49,040 nt of DNA, taken from Bacteroidota bacterium. GTDB lineage: Bacteria > Bacteroidota > Bacteroidia > Palsa-948. The position numbers and the translations under genes are program-made. The stretch covers positions 1 to 49,040 of the forward strand of contig PLUL01000049.1 in NCBI GenBank assembly GCA_003164895.1, read 5' to 3'. This document shows, in pieces, positions 880 through 41,723 of this stretch. The notes below the pieces were generated by a model. That model worked only from the letters and a program-made list of their open reading frames with translations, searched no databases and had not been told where the DNA came from. Each line of letters begins with the position of its first letter. Within the stretch, counting starts at the first letter, position 1.

Positions 880-2097
880 CTATTTAGAAGCCGCAGGTAA
901 CATTTTAGAAAACTTTCTTCTTTCTTTTTCTTCCAGAATCATTTTCAGTTCGCGGCTCAGTTGCCCGGCAATAGCGGTATTCTCTTCGGCGCGCCTCATT
1001 AAATAAGGCAGAGTAGATTTCACAGGTCCGTAAGGCAGGTATTTGGTAACGTTGTATCCCATGTCAGCAAGATTGAAGGTGATGTTATCGCTCATTCCGT
1101 AGAGCTGCGAGAAATATACGTTAGGATGATTGTTGCGAATGCCAAGTGCCTTCATCTTTTCGAGCAGATGGGTGGTGCTGGCTTCATTGTGTGTGCCGGC
1201 ACAGAGTTTAATGATGTCAATATTCTCCAGACAAATATCCACCGCCTTATCAAAATCAATATCGGTAGAAATTTTATCCTTCTGAATAGGCGAACGGTAA
1301 GCGCATTCGAAGGCGCGCTTGTTTTCTCTTTCCATATACGCACCGCGCACTAATTTTATTCCGATGAAGAATTTTTCTTCGCGTGCTTCCCATATAAGTT
1401 TTTTCAGGTAATCAATTCTGTCCCACCTGTACATTTGAAGCGTGGTGAGGATGATTGCGCTTTCGCGGTTGTATCTGCGCATCATCAGTTCCGCCAGAGA
1501 ATCTATTGCATCTTGAATCCAGCTTTCTTCGGCATCAAAATAAATAGGCACGTTGCAGGTGAAAGCTTCTTTGCATATTTCGTCCATGCGTGCAAGAAGG
1601 TCTTTCTTTTCTTTCTTCTCCGCCTCATCGAGTTCGTGGTGCGAATTTATTTTTTCGAGCAGCACATGACGCGCAATTCCTGTGAGTTTTAAACTGGTAT
1701 AAGGGATTGCAGGATTTCCCTTAGCAATGTGAATTATTTTTATGACTTCGGCTTTTGTGTTTTCAAAATCTTCTATGCTCTCTTTTCCTTCCACAGAATA
1801 ATCGAGAATGGAACCAACACCTGATTTCCCCAAATGCTTAACTACTTTTTGGCTTTCATCCAGCGTTTCGCCAGAGCAGAACTGTTTGTAAATAGTTGCC
1901 TTTACTGCTGCGGAAATCGGTAGATGTAATTTTATTGCTATTAGCGTGAGCTTTGAAAATACTTTTACCAGAAATGGATTCTGCATCAGCTTAAAAAGCC
2001 ATAGCGAGTGTTTAAGTTCGCCGTTATCTTTATTCTTAAAAGCAATTTCGGTATTGGCGAAATAAGTTGGTTGAGAATTATTTTTCTGAGAGCTCAT
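880..2097 (-). CDS. Proline dehydrogenase (monofunctional, FAD)
   Basis: A 405-residue FAD-dependent proline dehydrogenase. It oxidises proline to pyrroline-5-carboxylate and passes electrons to the quinone pool. Family hallmarks are visible: KLVRGAYMERE on a barrel strand, and the substrate-binding C-terminal helix YLPYGPVKSTLPYLMRRAEEN with the paired arginines and EN. It is the single-domain form, with no fused P5C dehydrogenase as in PutA. It lies 68 bp downstream of norB in the same direction. The spacer carries its own promoter-like element with an FNR-type palindrome, so it may be induced together with the NO genes. The fold assignment is firm; the co-regulation is inference. Confidence 0.92.
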   Translation of the reverse strand: MSSQKNNSQPTYFANTEIAFKNKDNGELKHSLWLFKLMQNPFLVKVFSKLTLIAIKLHLPISAAVKATIYKQFCSGETLDESQKVVKHLGKSGVGSILDYSVEGKESIEDFENTKAEVIKIIHIAKGNPAIPYTSLKLTGIARHVLLEKINSHHELDEAEKKEKKDLLARMDEICKEAFTCNVPIYFDAEESWIQDAIDSLAELMMRRYNRESAIILTTLQMYRWDRIDYLKKLIWEAREEKFFIGIKLVRGAYMERENKRAFECAYRSPIQKDKISTDIDFDKAVDICLENIDIIKLCAGTHNEASTTHLLEKMKALGIRNNHPNVYFSQLYGMSDNITFNLADMGYNVTKYLPYGPVKSTLPYLMRRAEENTAIAGQLSRELKMILEEKERRKFSKMLPAASK

Positions 2098-2125: not shown

Positions 2126-2169
2126 CAATTTTATCTTTAATCATGGATAAATAATGTGATTGTAGTCAT
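2126..2169 (-). promoter_or_regulatory. Predicted FNR-type promoter of proline dehydrogenase
   Basis: The near-palindrome GTGA-TTGTAG-TCAT (2156-2169) overlaps the norB stop codon. On the minus strand a -7-like element TAAAATTG (7 of 8 to TAnnTTTG) ends at 2126, exactly 30 bases from the palindrome edge. The same spacing occurs at five other promoters nearby. The proline dehydrogenase ATG starts 29 bases further downstream. This is the weakest of the six boxes, with one base off in the palindrome and one in the -7. Confidence 0.5.
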
Positions 2170-3506
2170 GGTTTAATTTCTTTCTGAAATAAATAATTAT
2201 ATGTTGCTTTCAGCATAGGAGAAATTATCATAATTAGCCCGACAAAAATTCCAAGTCCTGAAAAAGCAAATACAATAAGTATCGGATTTATTTTCTCCAT
2301 GATTTCCTGAAAAGTAAGTTTGTCATCTATTACCAGAATTCCTTTTTCGATTCCTGCTGCAATCAGGCAAAGCCAGAATATCAGCAGAAAAATATTAAAT
2401 ATCCAAAATCCCATAGTGATAATTTTTTTCTGACTGATTGTAAATTCGTGTTTGGTAACATCGGTTATCAGGAAAAATGCGGATGCAAGCAAAATAATTG
2501 TGTTGATTCCAATGGTACTTCCCATTGCATGAGCCACCGTAACATGAGTGCCGTGCGTGTAAACGTTAATTGCAGGAACCGAGATAAGAAGAGCCAGCGC
2601 AAGATTCAGAAACACCCATACATCGGATGCCACAATAAACCTTACGGGGAGAATATGAAAATTTCTTTTTGCATCGGAAAGAGAATTCTTCCAGTTCCAA
2701 ATTATTTTTCCGAGAATCAAAAGTTCAGTCATGCTGATGAAATACGAAATCATGCGAACCCAAATTGCAGATGGAACAATGTAAATATGATGCGCCCAGC
2801 CGAAAAGTAAATTTGCAAAACCGAGAAAGTACATCAGAAAAGCCAAACGGGATTGTGCAATTTTTTCATCTTCAGTAATTCGAGTCATCACGAAAATTGC
2901 TGTACCGTAAACCAGCATATTCCATGAGCCGACCATTGCTCCGCCTGATTTCCATTGAACGGTAAGATCGCGGATTAAATTATTTCTGAAGTAGGGGAGA
3001 AGCCACAAGTAAGATTCGCTGAATGTGATGAAGAAGAAAACAATTCCGGTAGCCCACATCCACATATACACGGGCCAGTTGCCAACTTTTTTAAATGCTG
3101 ATTTAAAATAATTTATACCGAATAAAATCCAGGAAATAAAAATGGGAATGGAAAGTATTGCGGGAAATTCCCAATATTCTCTTCCTCCGAATTTCCCCAT
3201 GAAATAGCAACATAAAATTAATATTCCTGTTACCATAAAAATCCAAAAATGAATCTTTGGAATTTTTTCTGACCACAACTTTGTTCCGCAATACGTATTT
3301 GTGTAATAATAAATTCCACCTATGGCGCAAAGAAAAATCCAAGCCACCACCAGCGAAACGTGAAGCGGTCTTAATTTTACAAATGAAATTTCTTTCAGAA
3401 AATCAGGATACACAAATTGAAATGCACCAAGACTGCCAAATAAAATTCCAACCACAAGAGCAATTAATCCCAACGATACAAATAATATTCCGGTTTCTTT
3501 TTTCAT
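2166..3506 (-). CDS. norB: Divergent cNOR-type nitric oxide reductase large subunit
   Basis: A 446-residue heme-copper-oxidase-superfamily membrane protein with about 12 hydrophobic segments. NorB features: H49 in RPLHVSLV (heme b ligand), GGREYWEFP (about 107-115), H239-H240 in GWAHHIY (FeB ligands), E261, and THGTHVTVAH (317-326) with the likely heme b3 ligand H326. It lacks the fused N-terminal cytochrome of qNOR and overlaps norC by 4 bp (ATGA), so it is cNOR-like. The segment that in classical NorB reads HLWVEGVWE aligns without gaps to GGAMVGSWN (188-196), so the first FeB histidine and the conserved glutamate are missing. Position 328, normally the second heme b histidine, is Met. It is either a distinct NOR class or an enzyme with altered chemistry. 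Confidence 0.8.
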   Translation of the reverse strand: MKKETGILFVSLGLIALVVGILFGSLGAFQFVYPDFLKEISFVKLRPLHVSLVVAWIFLCAIGGIYYYTNTYCGTKLWSEKIPKIHFWIFMVTGILILCCYFMGKFGGREYWEFPAILSIPIFISWILFGINYFKSAFKKVGNWPVYMWMWATGIVFFFITFSESYLWLLPYFRNNLIRDLTVQWKSGGAMVGSWNMLVYGTAIFVMTRITEDEKIAQSRLAFLMYFLGFANLLFGWAHHIYIVPSAIWVRMISYFISMTELLILGKIIWNWKNSLSDAKRNFHILPVRFIVASDVWVFLNLALALLISVPAINVYTHGTHVTVAHAMGSTIGINTIILLASAFFLITDVTKHEFTISQKKIITMGFWIFNIFLLIFWLCLIAAGIEKGILVIDDKLTFQEIMEKINPILIVFAFSGLGIFVGLIMIISPMLKATYNYLFQKEIKP

Positions 3507-3919
3507 TTTTGAGTAATGGTTCCGTCAAAATTTATTTCAAACTTTTTCACTGGTGAAGTTCCGGTCTTGTCAACATATTTCAGGTAAGCAACAAGTGATT
3601 TAATTTCATCTTCCAATAAATTAAAGTTAGGCATTCGCTGTGTTCCGGCTTGAAGAAATGCGCGGGCATACATTTCTCCTTTTCCAGGCGACGATACCAT
3701 ATTTGTCAAATCCGGACCCATGTATCCGCCAAGTCCGTAAAGTTGGTGGCAAGCGGTGCAATTATATTTTTGATAAAGAAGTTTTCCGGCTTGAGCATCT
3801 TCGGTCATTAATTCTTTTCCGTTATCCTCATCCGTTCCAATCGTAAAAACAAGAGATGTGTGTATGAAAAACAATGCAATTAAAAACCAGAAAATAAAAC
3901 GTCTTGTTTGGGTGGACAT
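3503..3919 (-). CDS. norC: NorC-like membrane-anchored cytochrome c subunit
   Basis: A 138-residue protein with one N-terminal membrane anchor (about residues 8-28) and a single class I cytochrome c domain: C54-T-A-C57-H58 heme attachment, the NorC signature HQLYGLGGYMGPDLTN just after it, and Met96 (RMPNF) as the likely sixth ligand. It should pass electrons from periplasmic donors to NorB. It lies 9 bp after the first Crp/Fnr regulator and overlaps norB by 4 bp, so regulator-norC-norB form one transcription unit. The match to NorC is strong even though its partner NorB is divergent. Confidence 0.9.
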   Translation of the reverse strand: MSTQTRRFIFWFLIALFFIHTSLVFTIGTDEDNGKELMTEDAQAGKLLYQKYNCTACHQLYGLGGYMGPDLTNMVSSPGKGEMYARAFLQAGTQRMPNFNLLEDEIKSLVAYLKYVDKTGTSPVKKFEINFDGTITQK

Positions 3920-3928
3920 GAAAAGTAT

Positions 3929-4666
3929 TTAATTGAGTGGTTCATCTCCAATAGCGATGAGAGACAGTTTATCAAAATTTTTTATCACTAATTTTTTATT
4001 GTGCATCGAAACCACTTGCTTGCTGTCAAAATCAGATAGAATTTTATAGAGATAGCTTTTTGTGGTGCCAATAATATCTGCCAAATCTTTTATCGAATAA
4101 TTGATAGGCATTTTTCCGGTTGCGGCACTTTTATTCTTCATTGACATTGAAATAAGTATTTCGGCAAATTGCTCTCGAATTTTTTTTCTGGATATGCTGG
4201 TAATCCTGTCTTCAATAAAACTTATTTTGTCGCACATATCTTTCATTAGTTTTCTTGAAACGACGGGTTCTTTTTTGATAAGATCTTTAAAATCGTTTGT
4301 CGGAATGAAACATACTTTCACCGGTTCAACAGCAAGCGCATTGAAATAATAATTTTCGCTGTTGACGAATGAATAAATTCCGATTATATCGCCGGGTCGT
4401 GCAAACCACAAAATAAATTCTTTATTTCTTTCTCCAAATGTCGAAACTTTAACAACTCCTTCCTGAATGCAGAATACACCTTGAAACGCATCGTTTTGTC
4501 TTACGATCATTTCGTTTTTTTCATATTGCCTGAATTGTTTGTTGGCAAACATTCCGTCAAGAAGTTCTTTTGGACAATCCTTAAACACCGAAAATTTTTT
4601 CAACCAACATTGATTGCAATTTGGGATTTCGAATTGAAGTTTTGCAGAACTGTTAATCGAATTCAT
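3929..4666 (-). CDS. Crp/Fnr-family regulator 1, first gene of the norCB operon
   Basis: A 245-residue Crp/Fnr regulator: cyclic-nucleotide-binding-like beta-barrel (about 35-125), dimer helix, C-terminal winged helix-turn-helix (about 190-215, DLADIIGTTKSYLYKILSDF). Cysteines C17, C20 and C31 near the N-terminus, plus C119 in VKVCFIP, occupy the positions of the four [4Fe-4S] ligands of E. coli FNR, with longer Cx2Cx10C spacing. Its recognition helix (TTKSYLYK) lacks the Glu-x3-Arg pair used by CRP/FNR to read TGA half-sites, unlike its two neighbours, so it may bind a different sequence. It heads the operon with norC and norB. Sensing of O2 or NO is inferred from the cysteines and the neighbourhood. 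Confidence 0.88.
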   Translation of the reverse strand: MNSINSSAKLQFEIPNCNQCWLKKFSVFKDCPKELLDGMFANKQFRQYEKNEMIVRQNDAFQGVFCIQEGVVKVSTFGERNKEFILWFARPGDIIGIYSFVNSENYYFNALAVEPVKVCFIPTNDFKDLIKKEPVVSRKLMKDMCDKISFIEDRITSISRKKIREQFAEILISMSMKNKSAATGKMPINYSIKDLADIIGTTKSYLYKILSDFDSKQVVSMHNKKLVIKNFDKLSLIAIGDEPLN

Positions 4667-4688
4667 TTTAAAAATATTTAATAGAAAC

Positions 4689-4732
4689 CAAATGTATTTA
4701 TCAAAAGAAAATTAAACAATGACTTGAATCAT
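4689..4732 (-). promoter_or_regulatory. FNR-type class II promoter of the regulator-norCB operon
   Basis: The perfect palindrome ATGA-CTTGAA-TCAT lies at 4719-4732. On the minus strand the -7 element TACATTTG (exact TAnnTTTG) is the complement of 4689-4696. The palindrome edge is exactly 30 bases from the last G of the -7 element. The palindrome centre is therefore near -41 from the expected start, the class II position. The ATG follows 23 bases downstream of the -7. Confidence 0.75.
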
Positions 4733-4756
4733 AAACACAACTGACTAAATAGGAAA

Positions 4757-5476
4757 TTACTCTGCAACGTTTGCAAGTTTTGCAAGCTCCCCGATATTCA
4801 GAATTTTTATCTTCTTTCCGATAAGTTTGATGATTTTACTTTTGTTGAAATCAGATAATACCCTTATGGTTGTTTCAGTTGTTGTTCCAGCCATATTGGC
4901 GATATCTTCCCGCGTTAATACAGTATTGATAGTTATATTGTCTTCTTCCAAACCAAAAAAATCTTTTAGAAGCAATAGAACTTCAGCAATTCTTTCCCGT
5001 ACATGCTTTTGTGCCATATTGGTTACCATCTGTTCGGCAATTTTCAAATCGCTTGACAATACTTTAATTGTTTTCATTGAAAATTCAGAATTCCTCATTA
5101 ACAAATCCAAGTAAACTGCTTTTGGGAAAAAACAGATGAGTGTTTTTTCGAGCGCGGTAGCGGTAGCGTGATAATTATCTGTGTGCAACAAAGCACGATA
5201 CCCAACTACGTTACCGGTTTTTGCAAGACGCACAATTTGTTCCTTTCCGTTATCACCAAGTTTATGTACTTTCACTTTTCCCGAATAGATACAATATAAT
5301 CCTTGCGGCTGATTGCCTTCGTAAAAAATCACCTGCCCTTTTTTATATATACTAAAAGATTTTTGTGTGGAAAGCTGAACGAGTTCTGTTTTTGGTAACG
5401 CACAAAACATAGAACTTGAAATATTTTCGCATTTATCGCATGGAGGTATTTCAATTTTTTTTGCAACAACTTTCAT
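4757..5476 (-). CDS. Crp/Fnr-family regulator 2 (FNR-like, four Cys)
   Basis: A 239-residue regulator when started at the ATG at 5476 (MKVVAKK). An upstream in-frame Met at 5518 would place the start beyond the predicted -7 element. Order: Cys cluster C13-x2-C16-x8-C25, cyclic-nucleotide-binding-like barrel with C115 in TLICFFP at the FNR Cys122 position, dimer helix, winged HTH (LTREDIANMAGTTTETTIRVL). The recognition helix has E-x3-R spacing as in CRP (REtvgR) and FNR, which fits a TGA...TCA half-site. It has its own FNR-type promoter, suggesting autoregulation. It could be the O2/NO sensor acting on the ATGA-N6-TCAT boxes; this is inference. Confidence 0.88.
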   Translation of the reverse strand: MKVVAKKIEIPPCDKCENISSSMFCALPKTELVQLSTQKSFSIYKKGQVIFYEGNQPQGLYCIYSGKVKVHKLGDNGKEQIVRLAKTGNVVGYRALLHTDNYHATATALEKTLICFFPKAVYLDLLMRNSEFSMKTIKVLSSDLKIAEQMVTNMAQKHVRERIAEVLLLLKDFFGLEEDNITINTVLTREDIANMAGTTTETTIRVLSDFNKSKIIKLIGKKIKILNIGELAKLANVAE

Positions 5477-5496
5477 ATACTTTAATTTTTCTAAAG

Positions 5497-5540
5497 CAAA
5501 GTAACATACAAGAATCAAAAAAAAAGATGATGTAGGTCAT
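5497..5540 (-). promoter_or_regulatory. FNR-type promoter of Crp/Fnr regulator 2
   Basis: The perfect palindrome ATGA-TGTAGG-TCAT is at 5527-5540. On the minus strand TACTTTG (complement of 5497-5503; TAnTTTG, one base short of consensus) ends exactly 30 bases from the palindrome edge. The preferred ATG (5476) lies 20 bases further. This layout supports the shorter start. Confidence 0.7.
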
Positions 5541-5674
5541 GTTTTGAAATATGGGTGAATGTGTCAAATTTCAAACGTGAATCTAAAAAAATGTCAAAGT
5601 TTTCCTACAGAAGGAATTAATAATTAGATAGCAGCTCGAGGAAAAATATTTAATAATCAGGTGTGGGAAAAAAA

Positions 5675-6385
5675 TCAATCGCTCAAATTTGCGCTGTGAA
5701 GAAGTTCATTTATTTTAAGAACCTTTATTTTTTTTCCAATGAATTCAAGAATTCCATCTTCTTTTAGTTCTGCAAGGATACGAATCGCAGTTTCTGTTGC
5801 CGTACCTGCAATATTGGCAATCTCTTCTCTGGTAAGAACTACATTCAGCGTGGCGTTATCTTTTTCAAAACCATATACTTCTTTCACAAAAAGAATTGCT
5901 TCCGACATTCTTTCCTTCACTGGTTTTTGAGCAAGATCTGTTATTTTGTGTTCGGCATTTTTTAAATCGTTGGAAAGCATTTTCATTACCTGAAGAGTAA
6001 TGGCATTATTGGTTTCAACAAATTTGAAAAATAATTGTTTTGGAATAAAGCAAATGGAAGTTTCTTCAATTGCTTCGGCGGTGGATGTATATTTTTCTCC
6101 GCCTAAAAGTGCCCTGTATCCAAGAAGATCTCCTGATTTTGCCAAACGAACAATTTGCTCTCTGCCGTTTTCGGCTAATTGAAACAATTTTACTTTGCCG
6201 GCATTGATGCAATAAATTCCGTGAGGATATGATTCCTGCTTAAAAATATCCTGACCTTTTTTATAGGTCGCACATCCTTTTTGTTCGTTTAGTTCGCTAA
6301 CTTCGGCTTTGGTCAGATCACAAAAGACCGATTTGAATCTAGCATCACAAAACTGGCAATCAAGATGGGGGTTTGCCTTTTTCAT
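5675..6385 (-). CDS. Crp/Fnr-family regulator 3 (FNR-like, four Cys)
   Basis: A 236-residue paralogue of regulator 2. N-terminal C10-x2-C13-x8-C22, C112 in TSICFIP at the FNR Cys122 position, and winged HTH LTREEIANIAGTATETAIRIL with the E-x3-R pair. Regulators 2 and 3 are clearly more like each other than like regulator 1; they share stretches such as ENGREQIVRLAK/DNGKEQIVRLAK, consistent with duplication. No exact ATGA-N6-TCAT palindrome was found in the 90-bp gap upstream. A TAAATTTG -7 candidate (complement of 6465-6472) is present, so it may be expressed constitutively or read through from the upstream cytochrome gene. Confidence 0.88.
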   Translation of the reverse strand: MKKANPHLDCQFCDARFKSVFCDLTKAEVSELNEQKGCATYKKGQDIFKQESYPHGIYCINAGKVKLFQLAENGREQIVRLAKSGDLLGYRALLGGEKYTSTAEAIEETSICFIPKQLFFKFVETNNAITLQVMKMLSNDLKNAEHKITDLAQKPVKERMSEAILFVKEVYGFEKDNATLNVVLTREEIANIAGTATETAIRILAELKEDGILEFIGKKIKVLKINELLHSANLSD

Positions 6386-6475
6386 GTGATATTTTTTATT
6401 ATGACATGCGTATTATTTTTTCTATAAGTTCTAAGATACATAAAATTTACTTCACCTTTTAAATCAAATTTATCA

Positions 6476-7060
6476 CTAATTAATTCCTATATCAATTTTG
6501 TCTGAAAGCTGCACCGCCAAAGATTTTATAGTATTTGATAAAATCCAAATTACGAATAATAACAAACATAATAAACCCATTAATAAATATTCTGTAAAAC
6601 TAAATAAATTTAGCAAGCTGACTGTTTGTTTTTTTTCACCGGAAGAAACAACTGGAGAAGATAAATTGTTAGCAGCACTTGATGGGCTTGGTACAATCTC
6701 AGTCTTTGCAGATGATAATTCGGTTGATTTTGTTACAATAAATCCAATTATGGAGTTGATTTGATCTTCACTTATTGCCAAATCGGGCATGGGAATTTTA
6801 TTATTGTCGTTAAATAATTTTACTGCTTGAGCATCGCCTGCTTTCACAAGAGTTTGTGAGGATTTAACCCATTTCTGTATCCATTGTTTTTCATGTCTGC
6901 TTTGAACATCCTTCAAATCCGGTCCAACTAATTTACCTTTCCCAACTGTATGACAGCTTGCGCAGTTGGTTTTAAAAAGTTGTTCTCCATCTTGTGCAAT
7001 TGCAACCGTAATGCTGCTGATTAAAGTAGCGAGAGCGAGAATTAGGTTTTTTGTTTTCAT
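6476..7060 (-). CDS. Secreted/membrane-anchored monoheme cytochrome c
   Basis: 194 residues from the ATG at 7060, which opens a good signal peptide (about 1-22, ending SITVAIAQ). An upstream in-frame Met at 7123 would overlap the predicted promoter and is rejected. One cytochrome c domain: C33-A-S-C36-H37, GPDL (about 46-49), Met91 in KIPMPDL as likely sixth ligand. A Ser/Pro linker and a C-terminal membrane helix (about 157-176) with a short tail follow. It is an anchored periplasmic electron carrier, possibly a donor to the NorCB pair. Its promoter carries two FNR-type boxes, the most of any gene here. Confidence 0.88.
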   Translation of the reverse strand: MKTKNLILALATLISSITVAIAQDGEQLFKTNCASCHTVGKGKLVGPDLKDVQSRHEKQWIQKWVKSSQTLVKAGDAQAVKLFNDNNKIPMPDLAISEDQINSIIGFIVTKSTELSSAKTEIVPSPSSAANNLSSPVVSSGEKKQTVSLLNLFSFTEYLLMGLLCLLLFVIWILSNTIKSLAVQLSDKIDIGIN

Positions 7061-7101
7061 GATTATAAGTTTAAAATTTATTTTTGGATTATTCTCTAAA
7101 A

Positions 7102-7169
7102 CAAAAGTATGTGCAAGTAACATACTGATATATGATGTTCATCATATCAATATATGATATTAGTCATAT
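7102..7169 (-). promoter_or_regulatory. FNR-type promoter with two tandem boxes (cytochrome c)
   Basis: Two identical 6-bp-arm palindromes ATATGA-N6-TCATAT lie at 7130-7147 and 7152-7169, 22 bp (two helical turns) apart. On the minus strand an exact -7 element TACTTTTG (complement of 7102-7109) ends 30 bases from the core edge (7132) of the nearer box. The further box would sit near -63. The ATG is at 7060. Confidence 0.78.
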
Positions 7170-7240
7170 TTATTTTTTACAAGCTATTCCTAATATTGCA
7201 ATAATAAAGCATTTTATGCAATATTTCAATTTATCTGAAG

Positions 7241-7284
7241 ATGATGTTACTCATACTTTGTAATAAATAGAAAATATACTTTCG
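7241..7284 (+). promoter_or_regulatory. FNR-type promoter of the 61-residue membrane protein gene
   Basis: The perfect palindrome ATGA-TGTTAC-TCAT is at 7241-7254. The -7-like element TACTTTCG (7 of 8 to TAnnTTTG) is at 7277-7284, with its G exactly 30 bases from the palindrome edge, as in the neighbouring promoters. The ATG at 7289 starts only 5 bases after the -7, so the mRNA would be leaderless or nearly so. Confidence 0.65.
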
Positions 7285-7288
7285 CTTC

Positions 7289-7474
7289 ATGAACAGCACT
7301 TACACGGCTATATTTTTCACCGTTTTGACTTTTCTTGCATGTTCAGGAATAATTCTTTTCATCACTTCAATGCGTTTATCGTTCAACAAAACGATGAAAA
7401 AAGGATTTTACCTTATTCTTATATCATTTCTCTGCGGAATGACAATGATGGGCTGGGTGCTTAGCCAGATATAG
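7289..7474 (+). CDS. Small two-helix membrane protein, function unknown
   Basis: 61 residues with two hydrophobic helices (about 6-28 and 40-59) joined by a short basic loop (RLSFNKTMKK), so both ends are probably on the same, periplasmic side. I do not recognise the family. Support for it being real: it sits directly behind a promoter of the same design as the norCB operon, diverges from the cytochrome c gene, and overlaps the end of the convergent thioredoxin-like gene by 14 bp. Cys18 and Cys49 are present. It may assist a respiratory complex, but nothing in the sequence proves that. Confidence 0.6.
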   Translation: MNSTYTAIFFTVLTFLACSGIILFITSMRLSFNKTMKKGFYLILISFLCGMTMMGWVLSQI

Positions 7475-8087
7475 AATTGTTTTCCCAAGCCGGAATCAGT
7501 TTTAGAAAATCATTTTGTATGGATTCTCCTTTATCTTGTGCGTACCAGAGATGAACATTTTTCACAAATTCATGGTGAGAAATATTCGGATTGGCTGACT
7601 TGAATTCTTTTACTTTCTCGGCAATTTGTTTAGGTCGTGGACCCCAAATTCCAATTTTATCTCCCGATATTTCATCTGTACAAATTAAAATGGGAATCGA
7701 ACGAGCTCCATTGGTAAGATTTTTATCCATGATTTCCGGATTTTCATCGCGTAAAATAATTTTCAGATCAATATTCACATTTAAAGATCCCATTTTTGAA
7801 ATCACCGGAAGATTCTGCGCTCCATCACCGCACCAAGATTCTGCAATGACCAACCAATTCCATTTTTGGTTTACTCTTTTAATTAGGTCTGACAGGTCTT
7901 TTCCGATTACAATTTGTTTATCAATCCGTTTCATGCGTTGAGCGTTGAGTTTTGTGGCTTCAATTCTTTCAATACTTTGTTCAACGCCAGATGTAGATTT
8001 AGACTCGGATAATTGAATAACAAAATTTCTATAATCAGAATAACCCCAACTTCTGCTGATTGGATGTTTTAATTTTTCTTTTTCCAT
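7461..8087 (-). CDS. Thioredoxin-like protein with monothiol WCGDG motif
   Basis: 208 residues. The C-terminal part (about 75-180) is a thioredoxin fold: strand WNWLVIAESWCGDG (C86), a helix, and SIPI with the cis-Pro-like P132. The usual second catalytic cysteine (CxxC) is replaced, leaving CGDG, so it is not a standard dithiol reductase. C136, just after the cis-Pro strand, could be a partner. Residues 1-75 are a helical N-terminal extension. No signal peptide is seen, so it is probably cytoplasmic. Its promoter region carries an FNR-type box, suggesting a role in NO/thiol stress; that is inference. Confidence 0.75.
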   Translation of the reverse strand: MEKEKLKHPISRSWGYSDYRNFVIQLSESKSTSGVEQSIERIEATKLNAQRMKRIDKQIVIGKDLSDLIKRVNQKWNWLVIAESWCGDGAQNLPVISKMGSLNVNIDLKIILRDENPEIMDKNLTNGARSIPILICTDEISGDKIGIWGPRPKQIAEKVKEFKSANPNISHHEFVKNVHLWYAQDKGESIQNDFLKLIPAWENNSISG

Positions 8088-8163
8088 CTTAATTTAATAT
8101 TGTAATTGTTTTTATCCCAGTTATGTTTCGATGGCATTTTGTTAAAAAATAATTTTTAACTTT

Positions 8164-8207
8164 CAAAAGTCCACATAAAAGTTTAATTGCACTATGACAT
8201 TTGTCAT
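8164..8207 (-). promoter_or_regulatory. FNR-type promoter of the thioredoxin-like gene
   Basis: The perfect palindrome ATGA-CATTTG-TCAT is at 8194-8207. On the minus strand GACTTTTG (complement of 8164-8171, 7 of 8 to TAnnTTTG) ends exactly 30 bases from the palindrome edge. The ATG at 8087 is 76 bases further, implying a leader of about 70 bases. It occupies part of the 466-bp gap before nrdJ. Confidence 0.6.
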
Positions 8208-17444: not shown

Positions 17445-17489
17445 TTATCAACTCTGAAAAAAATCATGTTTCTATTTAAAATAAATAAA

Positions 17490-17497
17490 TAGATTTG
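17490..17497 (+). promoter_or_regulatory. -7 element immediately before nuoE
   Basis: TAGATTTG (exact TAnnTTTG) ends 6 bases before the nuoE ATG at 17504. No clear TTTG lies 18-20 bases upstream. If used, the nuo mRNA would start at or next to the ATG. No purine-rich ribosome site is visible in front of nuoE. Confidence 0.35.
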
Positions 17498-41605: not shown

Positions 41606-41723
41606 ATGTTTGAAATATATAATACAAACAAAGTACATTTTTGTAATTTATGGCATGATATAAATCATAAAGAATAAAATAAATTAATAACGTATCTCAA
41701 TACTCCCGCGAAGTTAGGAAATC

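Follow-up and report, generated by a model that had tools for sequence, protein, structure and literature searches.

We analysed a 49,040-nucleotide stretch of DNA (hereafter the window) from a member of the Bacteroidia (contig PLUL01000049.1), in which six promoters between positions 2126 and 8207 carry a palindrome, ATGA-N6-TCAT, at one fixed distance from a TAnnTTTG-like -7 element. Its consensus, aTGAY-N4-RTCAT, is probably a class II activator operator, predicted to be read by FNR variants of the kind of the neighbouring regulators 2 and 3 and to activate transcription under low oxygen. Bacteroidota are abundant and have a promoter code of their own. We came across no account of the way in which they turn on respiration at low oxygen and nitric oxide (NO) reduction; a literature search, with most subscription journals outside its scope, returned no text match to ATGA-N6-TCAT and no FNR box of Bacteroidota.

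The window (G+C 38.0%) contains ten exact ATGA-N6-TCAT palindromes, the expected number being 1.85, and none of 100 shuffles reached ten. Six of them lie between 4719 and 8207 (Table 1), with a chance probability of about 2e-7. A first-pass annotation had given an AT content of roughly 62% and a chance expectation of about 0.3, both of which were correct, and the boxes that it listed at six promoters, five exact and one with a single mismatch (ATGACTACAATCAC), were all present. As it had stated, exactly 30 bases separate the box edge at each of the six from the last G of a -7 element, which lies on the same strand as the next gene. Two of the -7 elements are exact TAnnTTTG and the other four have one mismatch each; the chance probability of a -7 element at exactly 30 bases for five of the six exact boxes is about 2e-8. 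The sixth exact box (box 4b) has no -7 element of its own and is located exactly 22 bp upstream of box 4. The fixed offset supports the annotation's assignment of a Crp/FNR-type operator to the class II position near -41.5 from predicted start sites.

We scanned the whole genome (3.25 Mb) for ATGA-N6-TCAT followed by a relaxed -7 element at 31 possible offsets. The scan returned 86 matches, 22 of them at offset 30, and the other 30 offsets had a mean of 2.1. Since 16 of the 22 fall outside the window, the regulon is genome-wide and its earlier description as local was dropped. The annotation had named two findings that would each speak against it, boxes as frequent within genes as outside them and boxes lacking the 30-base offset; the scan favours the regulon, as offset 30 is unique and, among the retrieved loci to which this tally applies, all nine boxes with a -7 element at 30 are intergenic versus 11 of the 30 other boxes. 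TGA-N6-TCA occurs at offset 30 from an exact TAnnTTTG at 18 sites in the genome. The promoter side reads TCAT in 18/18 and the distal letter is A in 11/18; therefore, the promoter-proximal half-site is the stricter one. These 11 ATGA/TCAT composites were accompanied by none with T or G on both sides and by no KTGA/TCAM composite anywhere in the genome. The inner bases are mostly pyrimidine on the left and purine on the right, giving the consensus above; in the site logo, T at position 14 partly reflects the choice of loci by TCAT, and the unselected evidence is the 18/18 count. One palindrome on contig 55 (L096:3616-3629) separates a 2-hydroxyglutaryl-CoA dehydratase-type gene from a divergent MobA-like gene and is flanked on either side by a -7 element at 30; it may therefore serve both genes. 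Two-sided boxes at 30-31 similar to this one were also seen at Flavobacterium norB loci.

The arrangement is conserved. The congener L175 is syntenic and keeps a box, with a -7-like element at offset 30, at five of the six window promoters; at the sixth, that of proline dehydrogenase, the box is accompanied by a poorer -7-like element. Three further congeners (L174, L176 and L177) retain box and -7 element of regulator 1-norCB and of regulator 2, and L174 and L176 also those of proline dehydrogenase. The seven core bases are 86-100% identical among congeners versus 23-77% for the 22-base spacers. At 26 norB loci, drawn from Bacteroidetes and other groups, 49 matches were found at offset 30 and 26 at offset 31, the remaining offsets having 0-12, and several Flavobacterium norC genes carry a box at 30. 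A cultured relative in which boxes are conserved is Flavobacterium aquatile LMG 4008 (locus L055). Of 149 genomes of the same class, 71 contain the exact composite, with 207 occurrences in all (class-wide and letter-combination totals were summed by hand from tables). In these genomes, there were 6 occurrences of the reversed pattern and about 202 summed over 11 wrong gaps, or about 18 per gap. A phylum sample had its matches concentrated in the same class. With T or G letters and the same geometry, four letter combinations gave 145 matches and the control 23, as if the geometry were shared and the box letter varied with lineage. Six Bacteroidia genomes (G267, G281, G335, G293, G294 and G371) have TTGA/TCAA or GTGA/TCAC boxes at the 30-base offset. 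Two NorB relatives of 51-53% identity (L052, L068) lie on contigs labelled Ardenticatenales and Eremiobacterota, possibly through horizontal transfer or misbinning.

The targets in the genome itself include norCB with regulator 1, cytochromes c, cytochrome oxidase subunit II, ATP synthase subunit a and an electron-transfer flavoprotein. Others are proline dehydrogenase, pyruvate:ferredoxin oxidoreductase, citrate synthase, ATP-type phosphoenolpyruvate (PEP) carboxykinase, Hsp20, a universal stress protein and phasin-like, TerB-like and thioredoxin-like proteins. Peptidase U32, 2-hydroxyglutaryl-CoA dehydratase/BcrAD-type proteins, a MobA-like enzyme and two regulators, regulator 2 and one of ArsR type, also follow a box. 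Across the class, hemN, ccoN, ccoS and the copper nitrite reductase gene nirK scored above their NCBIfam cut-offs. The box also precedes genes for a NorC-like cytochrome, PEP carboxykinase, pyruvate phosphate dikinase, peptidase U32 and cytochromes c. hemN and cbb3 oxidase are well-established targets of FNR, and judged by gene content the target set is FNR-like. The BcrAD-type ATPase and HGD-D genes (L095:2591-3430, L096:3677-4840) sit under the same box; anaerobic acyl-CoA dehydratase or aromatic-ring reduction is a possible role for them in this Bacteroidota genome.

Three Crp/FNR-family regulators, numbered 1 to 3, are encoded among the window promoters. Regulator 2, the best candidate reader of the box, has the Crp/FNR fold, with a cyclic nucleoside monophosphate (cNMP)-like domain and a Crp-type helix-turn-helix (HTH). 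The best solved relatives in a profile search were the P. gingivalis Crp/Fnr protein 2gau (33% identity, the closest) and A. fischeri FNR. The AlphaFold2 model of regulator 2 (predicted local distance difference test, 88.7) matched 2gau with a template-modelling (TM) score of 0.85 over 214 columns and A. fischeri holo-FNR with TM 0.82-0.83 over 236-237 columns. All 30 homologues compared have C13, C16 and C115, and at least 90% have C25. Two of the orthologues lacking C25 (L159 and L165) have their third Cys in a C-X2-C-X2-C pattern, which suggests a ligand replacement. C115 aligned to the central cluster ligand of FNR in a comparison with the E. coli FNR and CRP sequences. Regulator 2 is probably FNR-like in its working, with an iron-sulphur (Fe-S) cluster, presumably [4Fe-4S], that would sense oxygen. 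The best named NCBIfam family is FNR, with 108.7 bits to the Fnr model PRK11161 against a cut-off of 228. Because its helix, its box and its model score all depart from those of FNR, regulator 2 is not classed as FNR proper. The annotation had called the regulon FNR/DNR-type; the FNR half of this label fits better than the DNR half, given the conserved cysteines, FNR as the closest named family and the low-oxygen targets.

The recognition helix reads E-T-I-S-R in FNR and R-E-T-V-G-R in CRP. Regulators 2 and 3 and their relatives have E-T-x-I-R in place of the FNR pattern E-x-x-S-R. Rodionov et al. (PMC1274295) linked residue 180 with motif base 3 (the first core letter) and the A of TGA with residue 181. 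Residue 181 is Glu here, matching TGA, residue 180 is mostly Thr or Ala and residue 184 is Ile; Thr/Ala 180 and Ile 184 may be the partners of the box letter A. In G281, which has TTGA boxes, a regulator has the helix P-E-T-L-S-R with TTGACCTGAGTCAA beside it, in agreement with such a pairing. As this is the one clear contrast, we offer the code between box letter and helix residue as a hypothesis. Most close orthologues of regulator 2 have a box at offset 30 in their own promoter, and regulators 2 and 3 are the likely box readers. Regulator 1 was rejected as a reader since its helix, TTKSYLYK, is without the usual TGA-reading Glu and Arg; its orthologues have N/S-Y-L-x-K. It is probably a target of the box and would recognise a different sequence.

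Several points weigh against this assignment. The Cys spacing is CX2CX8C versus CX2CX5C in E. coli FNR, regulator 3 lacks a canonical box in front of its own gene, and in L163 an E-T-x-I-R helix adjoins a CTGA/TCAG box. Moreover, twelve Crp/FNR HTH matches were counted in the genome, and at least five of these paralogues (regulators 2, 3 and at least three others) share the E-T-x-I-R helix. Therefore, the box is not assignable to a single protein.

Given these results, we propose that a drop in oxygen, and perhaps NO, would lead the regulators to turn on NO reduction, cytochromes, alternative oxidases, oxygen-independent metabolism and survival proteins. A dimer of the regulator 2/3 kind would bind the box with its centre near -41.5, and the promoter-proximal TCAT would occupy the place of the Bacteroidota -33 element. 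The bound dimer would recruit RNA polymerase to the TAnnTTTG -7 element by class II activation, and regulator 2 would activate its own gene too. An exact motif with fixed spacing makes the regulon computable across thousands of genomes. If the proposal holds, it also adds to the known correspondence of recognition-helix residues with box letters and locates the docking site of a class II activator on the TAnnTTTG promoter. More tentatively, and rating it somewhat less likely than not, we picture a class-wide FNR network of the Bacteroidia with a DNA code of its own, in which Ile for Ser in the helix goes with A for T in the box, other lineages use T or G with the same geometry, and paralogues including receiver-like Crp proteins share one operator able to drive two divergent promoters.

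Two long Crp-type proteins on contigs 3 and 34 (L102 and L103; open frames of 368 and 371 amino acids) have an N-terminal region like a response-regulator receiver and an E-T-x-I-R helix, and the one on contig 3 lies among boxed Hsp20, universal stress protein, phasin and TerB genes. Such paralogues (C3:48158 and C34:87262) might be the main readers, with regulators 2 and 3 minor and the regulon a general stress or two-component output, as their shared helix and the boxed stress genes around one of them would allow. We consider this unlikely: the promoters of regulator 2 orthologues themselves carry the box, none was seen before the second long protein, and the first is preceded only by a CTGA/TCAG box at 29. 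Alternatively, the signal acting through this operator and geometry could be NO bound by haem, as in DNR or NnrR, instead of oxygen sensed through an Fe-S cluster. norCB and the copper nitrite reductase gene are boxed, the three regulators adjoin norCB, and P. gingivalis HcpR responds to nitrosative stress and binds haem (PMC12040651). The FNR-type cysteines are nevertheless conserved, and many targets (ccoN, hemN, pyruvate:ferredoxin oxidoreductase, PEP carboxykinase and universal stress protein genes) are unrelated to NO, which makes this reading quite improbable. Repression is very unlikely: a dimer over the expected -33 element could block the promoter, but a repressor would tolerate many positions, whereas the fixed 30-base spacing marks class II activation. 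A chance or compositional artefact of an AT-rich genome was rejected as next to impossible on the shuffles, the reversed-pattern and wrong-gap controls and the conservation.

Table 1. Boxes, -7 elements and genes of the predicted regulon in the window.
Feature	Position	Strand	Remarks
-7 element TAAAATTG, proline dehydrogenase promoter	2126..2133	-	
Box 1, ATGACTACAATCAC, proline dehydrogenase promoter	2156..2169	-	one mismatch to ATGA-N6-TCAT; offset-30 boxes at congener orthologues
-7 element TACATTTG, regulator 1-norCB promoter	4689..4696	-	
Box 2, ATGATTCAAGTCAT, regulator 1-norC-norB promoter	4719..4732	-	in four congeners; also 5' of norC in L050, L053
-7 element TTACTTTG, regulator 2 promoter	5497..5504	-	
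Box 3, ATGACCTACATCAT, regulator 2 promoter (predicted autoregulation)	5527..5540	-	offset-30 box before regulator 2 orthologues
-7 element TACTTTTG, cytochrome c promoter	7102..7109	-	
Box 4 (proximal), ATGATGAACATCAT, cytochrome c promoter	7132..7145	-	
Box 4b (distal), near -63.5	7154..7167	-	tandem with same 22-bp spacing in L175, L178
Box 5, ATGATGTTACTCAT, small protein promoter	7241..7254	+	kept in L175
-7 element TACTTTCG, small protein promoter	7277..7284	+	
-7 element GACTTTTG, thioredoxin-like protein promoter	8164..8171	-	
Box 6, ATGACAAATGTCAT, thioredoxin-like protein promoter	8194..8207	-	kept in L175
Proline dehydrogenase (target)	880..2097	-	PF01619
NorB-like haem-copper subunit I (target)	2166..3506	-	PF00115; NorB because paired with NorC
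NorC-like cytochrome c (target)	3503..3919	-	PF13442, weak PF22085
Regulator 1, Crp/FNR family	3929..4666	-	first gene of norCB operon
Regulator 2, FNR-like	4757..5476	-	best candidate box reader
Regulator 3, FNR-like paralogue	5675..6385	-	47% identical to regulator 2
Cytochrome c with membrane tail (target)	6476..7060	-	PF00034
Small protein, 61 amino acids, hydrophobic by eye (target)	7289..7474	+	no family match; 56% conserved in L175
Thioredoxin-like protein (target)	7461..8087	-	PF14595

Elsewhere in the window, CTGAAAAAAATCAT is followed by an exact TAGATTTG at offset 30 (17454-17497), just 5' of a 2Fe-2S thioredoxin-like (NuoE-type) gene, which is a possible further target. The site at 41655 (TTTGTTTG, offset 30) is weak, the next gene on its strand being 539 bases away.

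We compared the system with the known members of the family. A CRP system would have a TGTGA-N6-TCACA box and Arg180; here, residue 180 is Thr or Ala and the genome, as noted, lacks the corresponding composites. The DNR and NnrR regulons are likewise run by Crp/FNR activators of nir and nor genes, but they are proteobacterial and their boxes are CTTGATnnnnATCAAG and ctTTGcgnnnncgCAAag (Rodionov 2005, PMC1274295), neither of which is the box found here. HcpR of Bacteroides, Porphyromonas and others belongs to the same family, includes Bacteroidota and answers to nitrosative stress; its motif is GTAACnnnnGTTAC in most HcpR2 genomes and its regulon mainly hcp (PMC1274295), and in place of that motif and Pro at 181 we found ATGA-N6-TCAT and Glu 181. 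BT4338 (Cur/MalR) of B. thetaiotaomicron is also a Crp-family activator at a Bacteroidota -7 promoter, but it acts on carbohydrate genes through wwwTATGTTnTAnAACATAwww (PMC6989115), and the present box does not have this MalR motif (TATGTTnTAnAACATA). The known Bacteroidota Crp/FNR motifs of HcpR2 and BT4338 thus differ from this box. 2gau is the solved structure closest to regulator 2, but its profile match begins after the N-terminal Cys region, its residue aligned with C115 is not Cys, and its helix is MTVSNAIR versus TTTETxIR. FNR of E. coli and A. fischeri shares the dimeric Crp/FNR fold, the TGA-N6-TCA core, a four-Cys pattern, here of putative cluster ligands, the predicted class II position and hemN, cbb3 and nor-type targets. 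The differences are the first box letter, which is A here and T in the FNR box TTGAT-N4-ATCAA, the helix Ile in place of Ser, the CX2CX8C spacing, and a TAnnTTTG -7 element instead of a sigma-70 -10 element. The regulon is real and widely conserved, and it is probably a variant of the FNR-type system.

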